From the NCBI GenBank assembly GCA_016214955.1, contig JACRMN010000009.1, positions 1-47,702 of the forward strand: a stretch of DNA of 47,702 nt. The letters run 5' to 3'. The DNA comes from Deltaproteobacteria bacterium. Its GTDB lineage: Bacteria; Myxococcota; Myxococcia; Myxococcales; Anaeromyxobacteraceae. A program made the position numbers and the translations under genes. Below, piece after piece: positions 8,504 to 39,004 of this stretch (positions are counted from its first letter, which is position 1; every line of letters begins with the position of its first letter). The notes below the pieces were generated by a model that saw only the letters and a program-made list of their open reading frames with translations, did not search any database and was not told where the DNA came from.

Positions 8504-8627
8504 GGCCTGGCCTGGAGGATGCACCCCCGGTGGAAGGCCAGGAACGGCGGATCCCGTCGCTCCCGGCTCTCTCGGCGCCCTGTGCCGGCGCCGGGTGTGT
8601 CTTCCGGCACGCATGAGAAGGTCGCCC

Positions 8628-9632
8628 GTGCACCTCGGAGAGAAAGCCCGCGAAGCATCGTCGTCGCCTCCCGGTGCCGGCCCTGGCAGCGGAGACGCCC
8701 CGGCCGGCTCGAGGCCGGCCCCGCTCCGGCTCCTCGTGGCCGACGACGACGCCGATGCGCGCGAGGCGCTGGCCCTCGCTCTTCACCCGGAGTACGAAGT
8801 GATGTCCGCCGCCGACGGGCTGGAGGCGCTGGCGGTGGTGAGCTCCCGCAGCCCCGACATCATCCTGCTCGACCTGATGATGCCCAAGCTCGACGGCTTC
8901 CAGGTGCTGGCGCGGCTGGGCGCCGACCCCGTCACCGCCGGGATCCCGGTCCTGGTGATCTCGGGCCGGCGGGACGACGCCGGCAAGGTGCAGGGGCTGC
9001 GGCTCGGTGCCGTCGACTACCTCGAGAAGCCCTTCTCCGCACCCGAGCTGCGCGCCCGGCTGGAGCGAACCGCCCGCATCCTGCGGGACCAGAGCACGCT
9101 GCGCGAGCTGGCGCGGACCGACCCGCTCACCGGGCTCCCCAACCTCCGCGCCTTCCGCGAGCACCTGGAGGCGGAGAGCAGGCGGGCGAACCGCTACCGC
9201 ACCGAGCTCACCTGCATCGCGGTGGATCTCGACGGGCTCAAGGCCATCAACGACGAGCGGGGCCACGCGGCCGGCGACGCGGCCATCATCGCCATGGCCG
9301 AAGCCCTGCGCCGCGAGCTGCGCGAGACCGACTTCGTGGCCCGCTTCGGCGGCGACGAGTTCGTCATGCTGCTGCCGCACACCGGAGCCGCCGCCGGTCG
9401 CGGCTTCGCGGAACGGGTCTGCGGCCGCCTGGCGCAGACCGTGTTCCAGGTGGCGGGGCAGCACGTGGCGCTGGGCGCCTCGTTCGGCGTGGCCTGCCAG
9501 GAGCCGGGCGACCACCAGGACGGCGAGGCGCTCCTGCGGGCCGCCGACCAGGCCCTGTACCGCGCCAAGGAGCTCGGTCGAGGGCGGGTGGAGGTGGCCC
9601 CCCGCACCGACACCCCGGCCCACGGGCACTGA
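8628..9632 (+). CDS. Response regulator with diguanylate cyclase output (REC-GGDEF)
   Basis: About 334 residues from a GTG preceded by AGAAGG; an ATG five codons upstream (8613) is the alternative. The receiver domain (residues 33-150) has the acidic cluster at VADDDAD, the phosphoacceptor Asp near residue 82 in LLDLMMPKLDG, and the conserved Lys in EKPF. The GGDEF domain has an intact active site (FGGDEF, residues 241-245) and, five residues earlier, an RxxD inhibitory site (RETD). It should therefore make cyclic di-GMP from GTP upon phosphorylation, with product inhibition. The histidine kinase gene begins 40 bp downstream and is its probable partner. Confidence 0.92.
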   Translation: MHLGEKAREASSSPPGAGPGSGDAPAGSRPAPLRLLVADDDADAREALALALHPEYEVMSAADGLEALAVVSSRSPDIILLDLMMPKLDGFQVLARLGADPVTAGIPVLVISGRRDDAGKVQGLRLGAVDYLEKPFSAPELRARLERTARILRDQSTLRELARTDPLTGLPNLRAFREHLEAESRRANRYRTELTCIAVDLDGLKAINDERGHAAGDAAIIAMAEALRRELRETDFVARFGGDEFVMLLPHTGAAAGRGFAERVCGRLAQTVFQVAGQHVALGASFGVACQEPGDHQDGEALLRAADQALYRAKELGRGRVEVAPRTDTPAHGH

Positions 9633-33260: not shown

Positions 33261-35903
33261 CTAGCCGGCGAAGGGCAGCTCGCGCTGCGGCCGGCGCCGC
33301 GGGACGCGGATGGTGAACTCGGTGCCCTGCCCGGGCGCGCTCTGGAGCTGGAGGGTTCCGCCCAGGCTCTGCACCACCCGCCGCGAGATGGTGAGTCCCA
33401 GGCCGGTGCCGCGCCCCGGCCCCTTGGTGGTGAAGAAGGGGGTGAAGAGCCGGGCCTGCACCTCGGGGTCGATGCCCGGGCCGTTGTCGCTGACGCGGAT
33501 CACCAGCTCGTCCCCGTCGCCGCTGCCCCGCACCCAGACCCGGCCGGTCTCCTCCGGCACCGCCTCGATGGCGTTCTGCACCAGGTTGGTGATCACCTGG
33601 TTCCACTCCTCCGGGACGCACTCCAGCGTGCCGTCGCCGGTGGCTTCCACCTGCACCTGCACCTTGCGCCCCGTGGCCGGCAGCACCACGTCCACCACGG
33701 TGCGCGCGGCCTCCCAGGCGTCGTGCGGGGCCAGCTGGCGCTGGTAGCCGGCGCGGCCGTAGCGTCCCATGAGCTCCACCGTCTGGCCGATGCGCTTCAG
33801 GCCCGAGTCGGCCACCGAGAGCAGCTCGCGCAGCCGGGTGCCGGCCCTCTCCAGGTCGGCCAGCTCGCCGGGCTGCAGCGGCCGCTCGCGGGCCGAGCCC
33901 ACCGTGGAGAGCGCCTGCTCCACGTGGAGCCGCACCCGGTGCAGGGAGTTCTTCACGTAGTTGAGCGGGTTGTTGATCTCGTGGGCCAGGCCGCCGGCCA
34001 CGATCTCCAGCGAGTCCATGCGCTGGGTGAGCACCATGTCGGCGGCCTGCTCCTCGGCCTGCACCAGCCGCCGGGCGGTGGTCACCAGCTCCTTGGGCGA
34101 GAAGGGCTTCACCAGGTAGGCGGAGACGCCGGTTTCCAGCCCCTTCACCCGGTCGTCGAGCTCGCCCCGGGCGGTGAGCATGATCACCGGGATCTGGCGG
34201 GTGCGCGGGTCCTCGCGGAGCAGCTTCACCAGCTCCAGGCCGTCCAGCTCCGGCATCATCAGGTCGGTGACCACCAGGTGGGGCCGCTCGCGCTGGATGA
34301 GCTCCAGCCCCTTCCTGCCGTCGAGGGCCGCCCGCACCTTGAACTGGCGCCGCAGCGTCATGTGGATGAGCTGGACGATGCGCGGGTTGTCCTCGACGAC
34401 CACCACGGTGTGGGGGCGGGCCTCCTCGTCGGTGTCCCGCTCCACCGCCCGCCGCTCGGCGGCCTCCTCGATGTCGAGCAGCCGGAAGTCGCGCCGCGCC
34501 GAGAGCCGCACCGCCCAGTCGAGGCCCGAGTCGCCGTCGGCCTTTACCGGCGCCTCCACCAGCACCTCGGGGCGCAGGTGCTGGCGGCCGCGCCGCAAGA
34601 GCACGGTGAAGCGGGCGCCGCGGAGGCCGTCGCTCCGGGCCTCGATGGTGCCGCCGTGGAGCTGCACGATCTCGCGGGCCAGGGCCAGGCCGATGCCGGC
34701 GCCGCCGTAGACGCGGGTGCCGGCCATGTCCACCTGGTAGAAGCGCTCGAAGAGCTTCTCCGCCTTCTCCGGCGGGAACCCCACGCCGTCGTCCTCCACC
34801 GTCACCGCCACCCACTCGCGGCGGTCGCCGAGCTTGACCTGCACCTGGCCGCCCGGGGGCGTGAACTTGATGGCGTTGGAGAGCAGGTTGACGAACACCC
34901 GCTCCAGCCGCTCCAGGTCGCAGGTCACCAGCGCCTCGGCCCGCTCCGAGAGGAAGGAGAGGGTGATGCCCTTGCGCTGCGCCAGCACCTGGGTCTGCTC
35001 GGTGAGGGCCGAGAGGTGCTCCACCAGGTCGTGCTCGCGGACCTGCAGCTGCAGCCGGCTCTCCTCCAGCCGGGAGAGGTCCAGCAGGTCGTTGATGAGC
35101 TTCAGGAGCTTCATGGCGCTGCGGAACATGGTCTGGAACGAGCTGCGCTGGGCGTCGGTGAAGCTGCCCATCTCGCCCTGCATGAGCAGCTCCAGCGGCG
35201 TGAGGATCATCGCCAGCGGGGTGCGCAGCTCGTGGGTCATGTTGGCGAAGAAGCGGCTCTTGAACTCGTCGAGCCGCTTCAGCTCGCTGTGCGCCTTCTC
35301 CAGGTTGGCGGTGGTCTGCTCCAGGCGGACGCGCTGCCCCAGCTGCTCGCGCTGGGTCCGGTAGGTCAGGGCCTGCCCCAGTGCCGCCACCAGGGCGGTG
35401 GCCGAGAGGAAGACCAGGTTGGAGAGGCCCTGCCCCGGGTTGGCGTAGGTCCCGGACGCCAGGTTCACCAGCAGGAACGAGGCAACGATGCCGATCTGGG
35501 CGGAGACCACGTAGGTCAGCGGCCACACGAACAGCAGGCCGGCGGCGAGGACGATCAGGGTCAGGCCGGCGTAGTAGGGCGAGGAGAGCCCGCCCATGTA
35601 GCTGGTCATGACGCTGATGCCGGTGGCCGTGAGCCAGGCCAGCGCCACGCCCAGCGGTTCGACCCAGCGATCGAGCGCCGGGCGGTGGACGAGCGGCAGC
35701 AGCAGCATCCCGGCCACCGCCACGCCCAGCCGCATGACCAGGAGGCTGGTGAGCGCCTGCGGCGGGGCCAGGAGCAGATCGAGGACGCCGAAGGCCGGGT
35801 AGAGCGTGCCCATGAGGATGAGCCCGACGCGCAGGCCGCGCCGGTTGCGCTCCAGCCGCCACCGCCGCCAGCGTTCCTCGAGCTCGTCCGGCGACGGCCC
35901 CAT
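33261..35903 (-). CDS. Membrane hybrid histidine kinase with two kinase cores around a receiver (PhcS/PhcR-like)
   Basis: 880 residues. Five to six membrane helices occupy residues 25-180 with little periplasmic sequence (ISVMTSYMGGLSSPYYAGLT), a layout suited to sensing a hydrophobic ligand within the membrane. Kinase core 1: His224 in FFANMTHELRTPL, N box NLLSNAIKFT, G2 GGAGIGLAL. Receiver: acidic pair VVEDN, Asp547 in VVTDLMMPELDG and Lys in LVKPF. Kinase core 2: His641 in GGLAHEINNPLNYV, N box NLVQNAIEAV and G2 GRGTGLGL. In Ralstonia, PhcS is a membrane kinase and PhcR is a receiver-kinase; this protein looks like both joined. It follows the PhcB-like gene by 3 bp. The equivalence is inferred from architecture and neighbourhood. 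Confidence 0.85.
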   Translation of the reverse strand: MGPSPDELEERWRRWRLERNRRGLRVGLILMGTLYPAFGVLDLLLAPPQALTSLLVMRLGVAVAGMLLLPLVHRPALDRWVEPLGVALAWLTATGISVMTSYMGGLSSPYYAGLTLIVLAAGLLFVWPLTYVVSAQIGIVASFLLVNLASGTYANPGQGLSNLVFLSATALVAALGQALTYRTQREQLGQRVRLEQTTANLEKAHSELKRLDEFKSRFFANMTHELRTPLAMILTPLELLMQGEMGSFTDAQRSSFQTMFRSAMKLLKLINDLLDLSRLEESRLQLQVREHDLVEHLSALTEQTQVLAQRKGITLSFLSERAEALVTCDLERLERVFVNLLSNAIKFTPPGGQVQVKLGDRREWVAVTVEDDGVGFPPEKAEKLFERFYQVDMAGTRVYGGAGIGLALAREIVQLHGGTIEARSDGLRGARFTVLLRRGRQHLRPEVLVEAPVKADGDSGLDWAVRLSARRDFRLLDIEEAAERRAVERDTDEEARPHTVVVVEDNPRIVQLIHMTLRRQFKVRAALDGRKGLELIQRERPHLVVTDLMMPELDGLELVKLLREDPRTRQIPVIMLTARGELDDRVKGLETGVSAYLVKPFSPKELVTTARRLVQAEEQAADMVLTQRMDSLEIVAGGLAHEINNPLNYVKNSLHRVRLHVEQALSTVGSARERPLQPGELADLERAGTRLRELLSVADSGLKRIGQTVELMGRYGRAGYQRQLAPHDAWEAARTVVDVVLPATGRKVQVQVEATGDGTLECVPEEWNQVITNLVQNAIEAVPEETGRVWVRGSGDGDELVIRVSDNGPGIDPEVQARLFTPFFTTKGPGRGTGLGLTISRRVVQSLGGTLQLQSAPGQGTEFTIRVPRRRPQRELPFAG

Positions 35904-35906
35904 CCC

Positions 35907-37514
35907 TCAGCCCAGCGACAGCTCGAGGAAGGGGTTGGCGCCGCTCTCCTCCTCGAGGATGCGGACCTGCGCTCCGGGGACCGCGCGGCGCCCGACCTCG
36001 AGCAGCTCCTCGCGCGACTTGTAGATCAGCGGCCACTCCAGGCCGTGCTCCAGGAGCCAGCGGGCGCGGTGGTCCACCATGTTGGCGATGAGCAGCCGGC
36101 CGTCGGGCCGGGCGGCGCGCGAGAGGTGGCGCGTCAGCACCGACGCGGTGCGCGGGGCCAGGTAGTCCACCAGGCCGCAGGAGTAGATGAGGTCGAACTT
36201 CCCGAACTCCTGGAAGAGGTTGGCGTCGCGCAGCAGGCGCTTGATGGAGTCGTGGAGGAAGGTGAGCTGCAGGCGGCCGCCGAAGCGCTCGTCGGAGACC
36301 GACTTGAGCCGCCGCCAGGCGTGGGCCAGGGCGTTGCGGTCCTGCTCGAAGAGCACCACCTCCAGCGGCACCGGCAGCTCGTCCAGGGCCTGGAAGAGCT
36401 CGTAGAGCTCCTGGGCCGGACCCGAGGCGATGGAGAGCACGCGCAGCGGCTGGGCGCGGCCGGCGTGGGTCTGGACCAGGGCCCGGAGCTGGCGGACCAC
36501 CAGGTCCTTGCGGTAGCGGACGGCGCGGGAGGAGATGGCCTCGCTGAATGCCAGGCCCACGGCGCGGGCGAAGAGCGTCCCGCCCTCGAAGAAGCGCTCG
36601 TAGATGAAGTTCATCACCTCGTAGTCGCCGGGATAGCCGAAGGGCTTGTGCCGGGCGCGGTGAAGGCCCGGCGAGAGCATCAGGAACTCGTCGAGCTGGC
36701 GCTGCGACCACTGGCGGCCCGCCGGGTTGGCGTGACCGCCCGGCAACTCGCGGACGGCGCTGTCGATCTCCTCGCTGAGCCGCACCACCTCGGGGACGAA
36801 GCTGGCCCGCAGCGAGCGGGCCATCATCGTCATCGGCGCGCTGCTCTCCTGCTGGAGCGAGTGCCAGGGGAGGCGACCCTCCAGCTCGGCGAGCTGGCTG
36901 CGGGCGTCCTCGAAGAGGAGCCGCAGCTCCGACACCCGCGCCTGGAAGCGCTCGCCACCGGCGACGCCCCAGCTGCGGTCCTTCACCCGCAGTGCCGAGC
37001 CCAGGTTCCCCCAGGCGCGCACGTCGCGGAGCTGGAGGATCTCGTCGATGTCGAGGAGGAAGTCGCCGAAGGAGAAGGCGACCACGGTGTGGTCCTCGCG
37101 CGGGCGCACCGATCCGGCCACCACCTCGCCGCAGAAGACCTCGTGCCCGTCGAAGCGCAGCGCGACCACCAGGCGCTGGCGCTTCTGGATGGGGACGTCG
37201 CGCGGCCAGGCGATGGCGGCGCCGTTCTGGGAGACGTCGAGGAGGGGGCACTCGCGGCGCTGTCCGGCCAGGGTCACCCGCACCGAGCCCACCAGCGGCG
37301 CCAGGTCCTCGGCGCTGTGGCGCTGGGGACGGAACTGGACGTTGCGCCCGTCGGCGCCGTCGAGCTCCTCGTAGGTGCGGACGCGAGGACGCGAGGGGAG
37401 GTGCGCCACCGACCCGCGTTCGGGCGCCGCCGCCGTCTCCTCCTCAGGCGCATGGGGCGGCTTGGGTGAAGTCTCCGCGTCGCCGCTGCAGTCCATCTGC
37501 TCACTGGCCTTCAT
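35907..37514 (-). CDS. PilZ domain fused to a PhcB-like SAM-dependent methyltransferase
   Basis: 535 residues. Residues 60-165 form a PilZ-like domain with the DxSxxG motif LLDVSQNGAAI; the RxxxR motif is not exact (FRPQRHSAE), so cyclic di-GMP binding is uncertain. The C-terminal part matches the family of Ralstonia PhcB, which makes 3-hydroxypalmitate methyl ester: HKPFGYPGDYEVMNFIYERF (residues 289-308), then GGTLFARAVGLAFSE, RAVRYRK, SAM motif I in VLSIASGPAQEL, FEQDRNAL and DLIYSCGLVDYL. It should methylate a carboxylic acid, possibly a fatty acid signal. The ATG overlaps the stop of the upstream REC-kinase gene by 4 bp, and the hybrid kinase follows 3 bp later, so the three form one operon. 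Substrate is inferred. Confidence 0.8.
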   Translation of the reverse strand: MKASEQMDCSGDAETSPKPPHAPEEETAAAPERGSVAHLPSRPRVRTYEELDGADGRNVQFRPQRHSAEDLAPLVGSVRVTLAGQRRECPLLDVSQNGAAIAWPRDVPIQKRQRLVVALRFDGHEVFCGEVVAGSVRPREDHTVVAFSFGDFLLDIDEILQLRDVRAWGNLGSALRVKDRSWGVAGGERFQARVSELRLLFEDARSQLAELEGRLPWHSLQQESSAPMTMMARSLRASFVPEVVRLSEEIDSAVRELPGGHANPAGRQWSQRQLDEFLMLSPGLHRARHKPFGYPGDYEVMNFIYERFFEGGTLFARAVGLAFSEAISSRAVRYRKDLVVRQLRALVQTHAGRAQPLRVLSIASGPAQELYELFQALDELPVPLEVVLFEQDRNALAHAWRRLKSVSDERFGGRLQLTFLHDSIKRLLRDANLFQEFGKFDLIYSCGLVDYLAPRTASVLTRHLSRAARPDGRLLIANMVDHRARWLLEHGLEWPLIYKSREELLEVGRRAVPGAQVRILEEESGANPFLELSLG

Positions 37515-38698
37515 CCCGCGCCTCCGTGTACGGCCCCCGCCGCCACCTCGCTCCCCAGGGGGAGGAGAATCTCGAATCGCGCCCCGCCGCCCGGCCGGTC
37601 GCCGGCGGCGATGCGGCCGCCGTGGGCGTCGACGATGAGGCGGGACATGTAGAGCCCCATGCCCAGCCCCTCGTCTCCCTTGCCGGAGACGAAGGGCTGG
37701 AAGAGCCGGGCCTTGAGCTCGGCGGAGACGCCGGGGCCGCGGTCCTCGACGGCCAGCTCCAGCTGCCCGCCGGCCAGCCGCGCCCGCACCACCACCTCGC
37801 CGTCGTCGGCGCTGGCCTGCAGGGCGTTGCGCACCAGGTTGAGCAGCACCTGCACCAGCTTCTGGCGGTCGGCTCGCAGCACCGGCAGGCCCGGCTCGAC
37901 CTCGGCCGAGACGCGGCGCCGGCGGAAGGTGAGATCCATGCGCGAGAGGGTCACCGCGTCCCGCACCACCGCCGCCGGATCGCAGAGGTCGGACCGCACC
38001 TCCAGCGCCCCCTGCCGCGAGTACTCCCGGAGCATCTGCAGGGTGCGGAGCAGGTTGTCGATGTGGTTGAGGCCGATCTCCAGGATCTGGCGCAGCCCCG
38101 GGGCCAGCTCCTTCTGGGCCAGCTCCCACTCGGCGGCCCGCAGCCCCACCATCACGTTGCGCAGGTCGTGGGCCACGCCCGATGAGAGCCGGCCGATGGA
38201 CCCCAGCCGTTCCAGGTGGAGCATGGCCTGCTGCTGGGCCTGCAGCTCCGAGAGCGACGCCGCCAGCTCGTCGCTGCGCCGGGCCAGCAGGGTCACCAGC
38301 CTGTCGATCGTGCGGCGCTGCCCGACGAACGCGCAGGCCTGCTCCAGCGCCTGGAGGATGTCGGCGGCCTCCCAGGGCTTGCGCAGGAAGCGGAAGGCAT
38401 GGGCCCGGTTGATGGCGGACTCCAGCGCCTGCATGTCGGCGTAGCCGGTGAGGACGATGCCGGCCACGTCGGGGTGGCGCTGGCGGACCGCCTCGAGCAG
38501 CTCCACGCCGGTCATCCCCGGCATGCGCTGATCGGCCACCACCACGTCGACCCGGATCTCCTCCAGCAGGCCCAGGGCCTCCGGCCCGGAGTACGCAGCG
38601 TGAACCTCCCACTGTTCCTCCAGGAGGTCGCGCAGGACGTGCACGTTGTTGGGCTCGTCGTCGACGAGGAGGACCGCGCCGGTGAGCGGATTGCCCAC
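37511..38698 (-). CDS. Receiver-histidine kinase (PhcQ/PhcR-like)
   Basis: About 395 residues from the GTG at 38698. An in-frame GTG at 38839 would add 47 residues, but a promoter-like sequence lies between the two, so the shorter form is favoured. The receiver has VLLVDDEPNNV, Asp56 in VVVADQRMPGMTG, LTGYAD and Lys in FLRKPWEAADI; the GYAD...KPW pattern is that of RpfG/PhcQ-type receivers. The kinase core has His177 in SSGVAHDLRNVMVGL, N box NLVRNALQAS, G1 DRGPGV and G2 EGLGMGL. It lacks membrane segments. It is the first gene of the PhcB-like operon and could relay or tune the signal from the membrane hybrid kinase. Confidence 0.8.
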   Translation of the reverse strand: MGNPLTGAVLLVDDEPNNVHVLRDLLEEQWEVHAAYSGPEALGLLEEIRVDVVVADQRMPGMTGVELLEAVRQRHPDVAGIVLTGYADMQALESAINRAHAFRFLRKPWEAADILQALEQACAFVGQRRTIDRLVTLLARRSDELAASLSELQAQQQAMLHLERLGSIGRLSSGVAHDLRNVMVGLRAAEWELAQKELAPGLRQILEIGLNHIDNLLRTLQMLREYSRQGALEVRSDLCDPAAVVRDAVTLSRMDLTFRRRRVSAEVEPGLPVLRADRQKLVQVLLNLVRNALQASADDGEVVVRARLAGGQLELAVEDRGPGVSAELKARLFQPFVSGKGDEGLGMGLYMSRLIVDAHGGRIAAGDRPGGGARFEILLPLGSEVAAGAVHGGAG

Positions 38699-39004
38699 GC
38701 CAGTCCGCGCCGCGAGCGCCGCGATCTGTTTCCGATCGTCCAGTCCCAGGACCCAATGAGGGGGTATCGTCCGTCCCAGTATAGACGGGTGCGACCAGCC
38801 GCCAAAGAGACCCGCTTCCGGATGCTCCAGAAAAACCACTTACCCAAGATGGTGCTGGCCCGTTTGGGGATCTCGGTCATATTCACCATCAGTTGATCAT
38901 GGCGGCAAACGGGCACACCCGGAGGATCTCGCCCGGACGGGGCGCATTGACGATCGGCCGTACGAAAACGGAAGATTCCCCGCTCACCCCATTTCGGAGG
39001 TCGG
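38699..39004. other. 306-bp divergent region between the signalling operon and the Liv operon
   Basis: It is clearly lower in G+C than the flanking genes, as expected for a region with two promoters. A sigma-70-like promoter for the reverse operon is listed separately at 38778-38805. On the forward strand, TTGACG (38947-38952) precedes livG, with no convincing -10. The livG ribosome-binding site GGAGG is at 38996-39000. Confidence 0.5.
38778..38805 (-). promoter_or_regulatory. Sigma-70-like promoter of the PhcB-like operon
   Basis: On the reverse strand, TTGGCG and TATACT are separated by 16 bp. TATACT matches the -10 consensus at five of six positions. It lies 80 bp upstream of the GTG at 38698 and inside the longer reading frame, which supports the downstream start. 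Confidence 0.45.

Follow-up and report, generated by a model that had tools for sequence, protein, structure and literature searches.

Quorum sensing and cyclic di-GMP (c-di-GMP) are usually joined by receptors that alter c-di-GMP turnover. In the Rpf systems (RpfF/RpfR and RpfC/RpfG), a fatty-acid signal is tied to c-di-GMP and controls its turnover. The PilZ domains of Alg44, YcgR and BcsA carry an RxxxR motif in addition to DxSxxG. PilZ control of a methyltransferase is described for MapZ and CheR1 of Pseudomonas aeruginosa, where inhibition by MapZ requires c-di-GMP (PMC6370697). In the phcBSRQ system of Ralstonia, PhcR consists of a receiver and a kinase domain without a DNA-binding domain (PMC8578825), and PhcQ affects signal production (PMC6989110). 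The locus described here belongs to a known kind, Phc-type signalling. What is new is a fused PilZ domain with an unusual putative ligand site and, through it, a possible link to c-di-GMP. We found no paper describing a PilZ-methyltransferase fusion.

The window (the whole stretch of DNA analysed, 47,702 nucleotides) comes from a soil bacterium of a myxobacterial group. The PilZ-methyltransferase gene, encoding protein P0001, is a single open frame of 535 codons plus a stop, with no internal stop. The protein consists, from N to C terminus, of a PilZ barrel (from about residue 62 to 150), which a helical linker joins to a class I methyltransferase. Coordinates of these parts and of the neighbouring genes are listed in the table. 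The genes are tightly packed: at its 5' end the PilZ-methyltransferase gene overlaps the REC-kinase gene by start and stop codon (ATGA), and at its 3' end 3 bases separate its stop codon from the start codon (ATG) of the hybrid kinase gene. The order of REC-kinase, PilZ-methyltransferase and hybrid kinase (HK-REC-HK) is kept in nearly all relatives, which belong to two families of the order.

Features of the PilZ-methyltransferase locus, with positions counted from the first letter of the window.
Feature	Position	Strand	Evidence and remarks
REC-GGDEF protein, listed for context as a possible source of c-di-GMP	8595..9632	+	GGDEF 9111-9584, 143 bits, E 1.7e-41
Hybrid sensor: TM sensor - HisKA/HATPase - REC - second kinase core	33261..35903	-	Pfam; downstream position conserved
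Multi-TM sensor domain, residues 1-205 of the hybrid kinase	35289..35903	-	Hydrophobic segments; homology to the Paraburkholderia graminis sensor
PilZ-methyltransferase gene (P0001)	35907..37514	-	535 aa; ATG 37514, stop at 35907
Class I SAM-dependent methyltransferase domain, residues ~290-535	35910..36647	-	Methyltransf_12/20/25; methyltransferases matched by Foldseek, E ~1e-5
SAM-binding motif I ASGPAQE, residues 363-369	36408..36428	-	G365, P366, A367 invariant across the whole family alignment
Helical region, PilZ to methyltransferase, residues 156-255	36750..37049	-	AF2 secondary structure, low confidence
DxSxxG motif DVSQNG, residues 93-98	37221..37238	-	D, S, G invariant in 18/18
PilZ beta-barrel, residues 62-150	37065..37331	-	Pfam PF07238 72-149; AF2; VIA structural matches to PilZ:c-di-GMP
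Arg cluster R57..F61-R62-P63-x-R65, at the expected place of RxxxR	37320..37346	-	Invariant in 18/18
REC-histidine kinase, PhcR-like architecture	37511..38839	-	Response_reg, HATPase_c; start codon uncertain; upstream position conserved

The draft genome comprises 30 contigs, and assembly or start-codon errors can arise in such data, but it is extremely improbable that the fusion is such an artefact. The frame is uninterrupted and the same fusion occurs in 18 aligned proteins from two bacterial families; this conservation refutes an artefactual origin. Absence of the fusion from all relatives, which the initial annotation had named as part of a refuting condition, is thus not the case.

The SAM site of the C-terminal domain is intact, and Pfam, the family alignment and Foldseek agree in placing it among class I SAM-dependent methyltransferases. 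The Pfam methyltransferase matches are weak, as is a similarity to CheR. NCBIfam holds no family for the protein, and a profile search of PDB sequences returned only coiled-coil and weak methyltransferase matches. The domain is related to a methyltransferase (P0002) encoded on a plasmid of Paraburkholderia graminis (32% identity over 276 aa, E 1e-39), where the gene precedes genes for a kinase and response regulators. The typing of that operon as Phc is based solely on homology and gene order, and the match of its receiver genes to phcR and phcQ is inexact. It was the only Phc-type operon found in a search of plasmids; none was found in viral contigs, and a search of genome contigs with P0001 returned four myxobacterial MAGs only. 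The sensor domain of the downstream hybrid kinase, which is single-copy in its own genome at E 1e-4, is 27% identical to the sensor of the P. graminis Phc-type kinase (E 7e-8).

The methyltransferase is thus flanked by a PhcS-type membrane sensor kinase and by a receiver-kinase that, like PhcR, is without a DNA-binding domain. The earlier description of the enzyme as signal-synthase-like is borne out by its homology to the P. graminis operon and by these sensor-kinase neighbours, which make up a Phc-like cassette. The locus shares with phcBSRQ of Ralstonia a PhcS-type sensor neighbour, a neighbour of PhcR architecture and methyltransferase homology, the last measured on the P. graminis protein rather than on that of Ralstonia. 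Unlike phcBSRQ, it encodes a PilZ barrel with DxSxxG and an arginine cluster, its kinase is fused to a REC domain and a second kinase core, and the gene order is REC-HK, methyltransferase, HK.

The pairing of methyltransferase and sensor extends well beyond the locus. A survey of 195 Myxococcota genomes turned up 46 methyltransferase homologues, 40 of them with the sensor domain within 1 kb. Both enzyme and sensor are present in 38 genomes, the enzyme only in 2 and the sensor only in 6 (Fisher p 1e-31, a value not corrected for kinship). The output attached to the sensor domain varies, and can be a histidine kinase, a SpoIIE (PP2C) phosphatase or a class III cyclase. A constant methyltransferase-sensor pair with swapped outputs is as expected of a synthase and its receptor, and we consider it likely that the two form such a pair.

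In other Myxococcota (L065 6239-9339 and L094-L109), the methyltransferase gene is followed by one for the same sensor domain fused to SpoIIE (PP2C), making these loci candidates for a signal synthase with a phosphatase-receptor. We found no paper describing this pairing. The version with a class III adenylate/guanylate cyclase output was seen once (L102 5334-8246, genome G054). Several near-complete genomes of the same bacterial family (G031, G032, G035-G037 and G039) are without both enzyme and sensor, so that the distribution is patchy. The genome studied here also encodes a further, distant paralogue of the methyltransferase (365 aa; L110 6039-7133; C26:731105-731818), close to which no sensor gene lies.

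In a tree of methyltransferase domains, the PilZ-bearing proteins form one group of 20 (SH-aLRT 96). A diverged extra PilZ-methyltransferase without kinase partners keeps FRPxR and DxSxxG (L060 8851-10563, G041:C133). Another appears split into two overlapping frames in a draft genome (L112 5343-6887, G020:C3), and a relative on G041:C72 is masked by N.

The N-terminal domain almost certainly adopts a PilZ fold, as judged from profiles and predicted structure. Pfam PF07238 matches P0001 with 23.6 bits (gathering cut-off 22.5; E 6.7e-5), and the best orthologue scores 41.5 bits (G042:C1). All 18 clade members scanned match PilZ; at E <=1, the model matches 19 of 29 scanned family members, the same count as that of members with PilZ motifs in the alignment (the 18 of the clade and a protein from genome G161). 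When a profile of the 18-member clade is compared with ordinary PilZ domains from the same bacterial family, hhalign gives a probability of 96% (E 2e-9). AlphaFold2, run with five sequences, predicted the beta-barrel and C-terminal helix of PilZ domains, with a pLDDT of about 94 for the isolated domain and of 85-90 across the greater part of residues 71-150 when the full protein was modelled.

The top structural match of the isolated domain is a PilZ:c-di-GMP complex, 4xrn (Z 11.6, rmsd 2.9, 96 residues aligned), followed by that of Alg44, 4rt0 (Z 11.3, rmsd 2.7, 98 aligned), YcgR (Z 10.9, rmsd 6.7, 117 aligned), BcsA (Z 9.8) and MapZ (5xly among the matches; Z 9.0, rmsd 3.7-4.3). Non-PilZ entries start at about Z 8. 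The structure prediction proposed as a check therefore upholds the PilZ-like domain. The DxSxxG motif lies at residues 93-98, as initially annotated. The full-length model has a mean pLDDT of 55 and low confidence outside the PilZ domain, so we do not interpret the linker or the contact between PilZ and methyltransferase.

D93, S95 and G98 of the canonical (D/N)xSxxG loop (DVSQNG) are invariant in 18 of 18 clade members, as are R57, F61, R62, P63 and R65. The 17 other members are 46-61% identical to P0001, and 21 of 131 positions in the barrel segment are invariant. The RxxxR motif was earlier described as imperfect. It is in fact absent in register (0/18, at the 20-30 residues before DxSxxG where canonical receptors have it), and FRPxR together with R57 stands in its place. 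R65 is separated from D93 by a spacing of 27, where most of the bacterial family's ordinary PilZ domains have 21; R57-F61 fall in a low-confidence portion of the model. The domain thus resembles those of Alg44, YcgR and BcsA in fold and in DxSxxG, but differs in having FRPxR and a further invariant arginine eight residues before R65. A relative from another family (G161, locus L064) has DLSLHG and an upstream RLRAR. Because RxxxR is absent, canonical c-di-GMP binding cannot be assumed. The invariance of both motif halves nevertheless speaks for a ligand site, of non-canonical geometry.

The barrel itself is probably old and general in the methyltransferase family, as judged from profile comparisons. 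The N-termini of SpoIIE-linked relatives align to the PilZ-clade profile (hhalign probability 72.5%, E 3e-5, 106 columns) with a score of 36.5, versus at most 19.0 in 100 column shuffles, and would represent a diverged, motif-free version; none of 13 SpoIIE-type relatives has DxSxxG. For the P. graminis Phc-type protein the comparison is suggestive of a diverged barrel too, less certainly than for the SpoIIE-linked set: its N-terminus scores 10.3 bits against the same profile (500 shuffles <=7.1), and the DxSxxG loop reads NLQRNS. Against a profile of ordinary PilZ domains neither is detectable (209 of 500 shuffles score as high for P. graminis and 13 of 100 column shuffles for the SpoIIE-linked barrels), so it is only by way of the PilZ clade that they are linked to PilZ. 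If these relatives do carry the barrel, only the potential ligand site is particular to the PilZ clade, which looks special in retaining it.

These comparisons make it doubtful that Ralstonia PhcB has no PilZ domain, as had been stated, although they were made on the P. graminis and SpoIIE-linked proteins. In experimental evolution of Ralstonia, the PhcB substitution R22C, which lies outside the methyltransferase domain at a residue conserved in Paraburkholderia, cut signal production without inactivating the protein (PMC6989110). If the numbering agrees, residue 22 of the P. graminis methyltransferase is an arginine directly before the NLQRNS loop. An ancestral barrel, if real, would offer a possible reading of R22C.

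We propose that the C-terminal methyltransferase would most likely esterify a fatty acid (possibly a 3-hydroxy-fatty acid) or a similar hydrophobic acid to yield a diffusible signal; there is about an even chance that the product is a fatty-acid methyl ester. The signal would be detected by the membrane domain of the downstream hybrid kinase and relayed via the REC and kinase domains of that protein and the upstream PhcR-like REC-kinase. The PilZ barrel would be an old, built-in regulatory domain of the enzyme family, in which the intact DxSxxG loop and the rearranged arginines (R57, R62 and R65) would most likely bind a nucleotide, with c-di-GMP the first candidate, and the bound form could raise or lower synthase activity in cis. 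For this reading as a whole, a Phc-type signal synthase with a nucleotide-regulated PilZ barrel in cis, we see the chances as evenly balanced. Computation establishes the fusion, the PilZ fold, the conserved motifs, the operon and the pairing of enzyme and sensor domain, whereas the product, the tie between that product and the receptor, the nucleotide of the barrel and the direction of its effect belong to the proposal.

The natural candidate for the nucleotide is c-di-GMP, because the genome has 15 GGDEF and 17 PilZ matches, because the REC-GGDEF cyclase noted earlier elsewhere in the window is indeed there, with its FGGDEF signature intact (the REC domain was read from the ORF), and because MapZ and CheR1 provide a precedent for the control of a class I methyltransferase by a PilZ domain. 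MapZ differs in being a separate protein that acts in trans on an enzyme methylating chemoreceptors, whereas in P0001 the PilZ domain is part of the enzyme, which probably acts on a lipid. Binding of c-di-GMP by the domain falls a little short of an even chance, and control of the methyltransferase by c-di-GMP is plausible to the same degree.

Almost as likely, given the missing RxxxR and the motif-free relatives, is that the barrel does not bind c-di-GMP and serves in protein contact or dimerisation, docking the enzyme onto the REC or kinase proteins encoded next to it. A parallel would be PhcQ, a receiver protein that has reportedly been proposed to act on PhcB. The persistence of motif-free barrels in SpoIIE-linked relatives, and probably in P. 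graminis, indicates that the barrel can serve without c-di-GMP, and the effects on Ralstonia signal production of PhcQ and of R22C described above fit a docking role. XCC6012, a PilZ protein without intact motifs, did not reliably bind c-di-GMP (PMC3131395), in line with a barrel that does not bind it. Against this reading speaks that D93, S95, G98 and the three arginines are invariant in 18 of 18 proteins while most barrel positions vary, and that DxSxxG and the arginine motif occur together, in the clade and in G161, with DxSxxG absent from the SpoIIE-linked set. The enzyme might instead act in the manner of CheR, modifying its operon partners (for instance a residue of a receiver or kinase) or some other component of the cell, with PilZ tying the modification to c-di-GMP. 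We consider this unlikely: the weak CheR similarity and the usual adjacency to signalling proteins would fit, but the constant partner is the membrane sensor, one methyltransferase family occurs with histidine kinase, SpoIIE and cyclase outputs, and the enzyme is homologous to P0002 of the Phc-type operon in P. graminis.

Returning to the proposed nucleotide-regulated synthase, its boldest form is rather doubtful as a whole. It holds that c-di-GMP gates a Phc-type synthase via a cis PilZ domain with a new arginine geometry (R57 and FRPxR), that PhcB-type N-termini are decayed PilZ barrels, and that synthase and sensor form a portable module whose outputs (kinase, PP2C phosphatase or cyclase) are interchangeable across Myxococcota. 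In contrast to the Rpf systems, c-di-GMP might here control signal synthesis. If it does, the PilZ domain of the synthase would link c-di-GMP and quorum sensing at the source of the signal, and the constant synthase-sensor pair with its swapped outputs provides concrete candidate signalling systems in Myxococcota.
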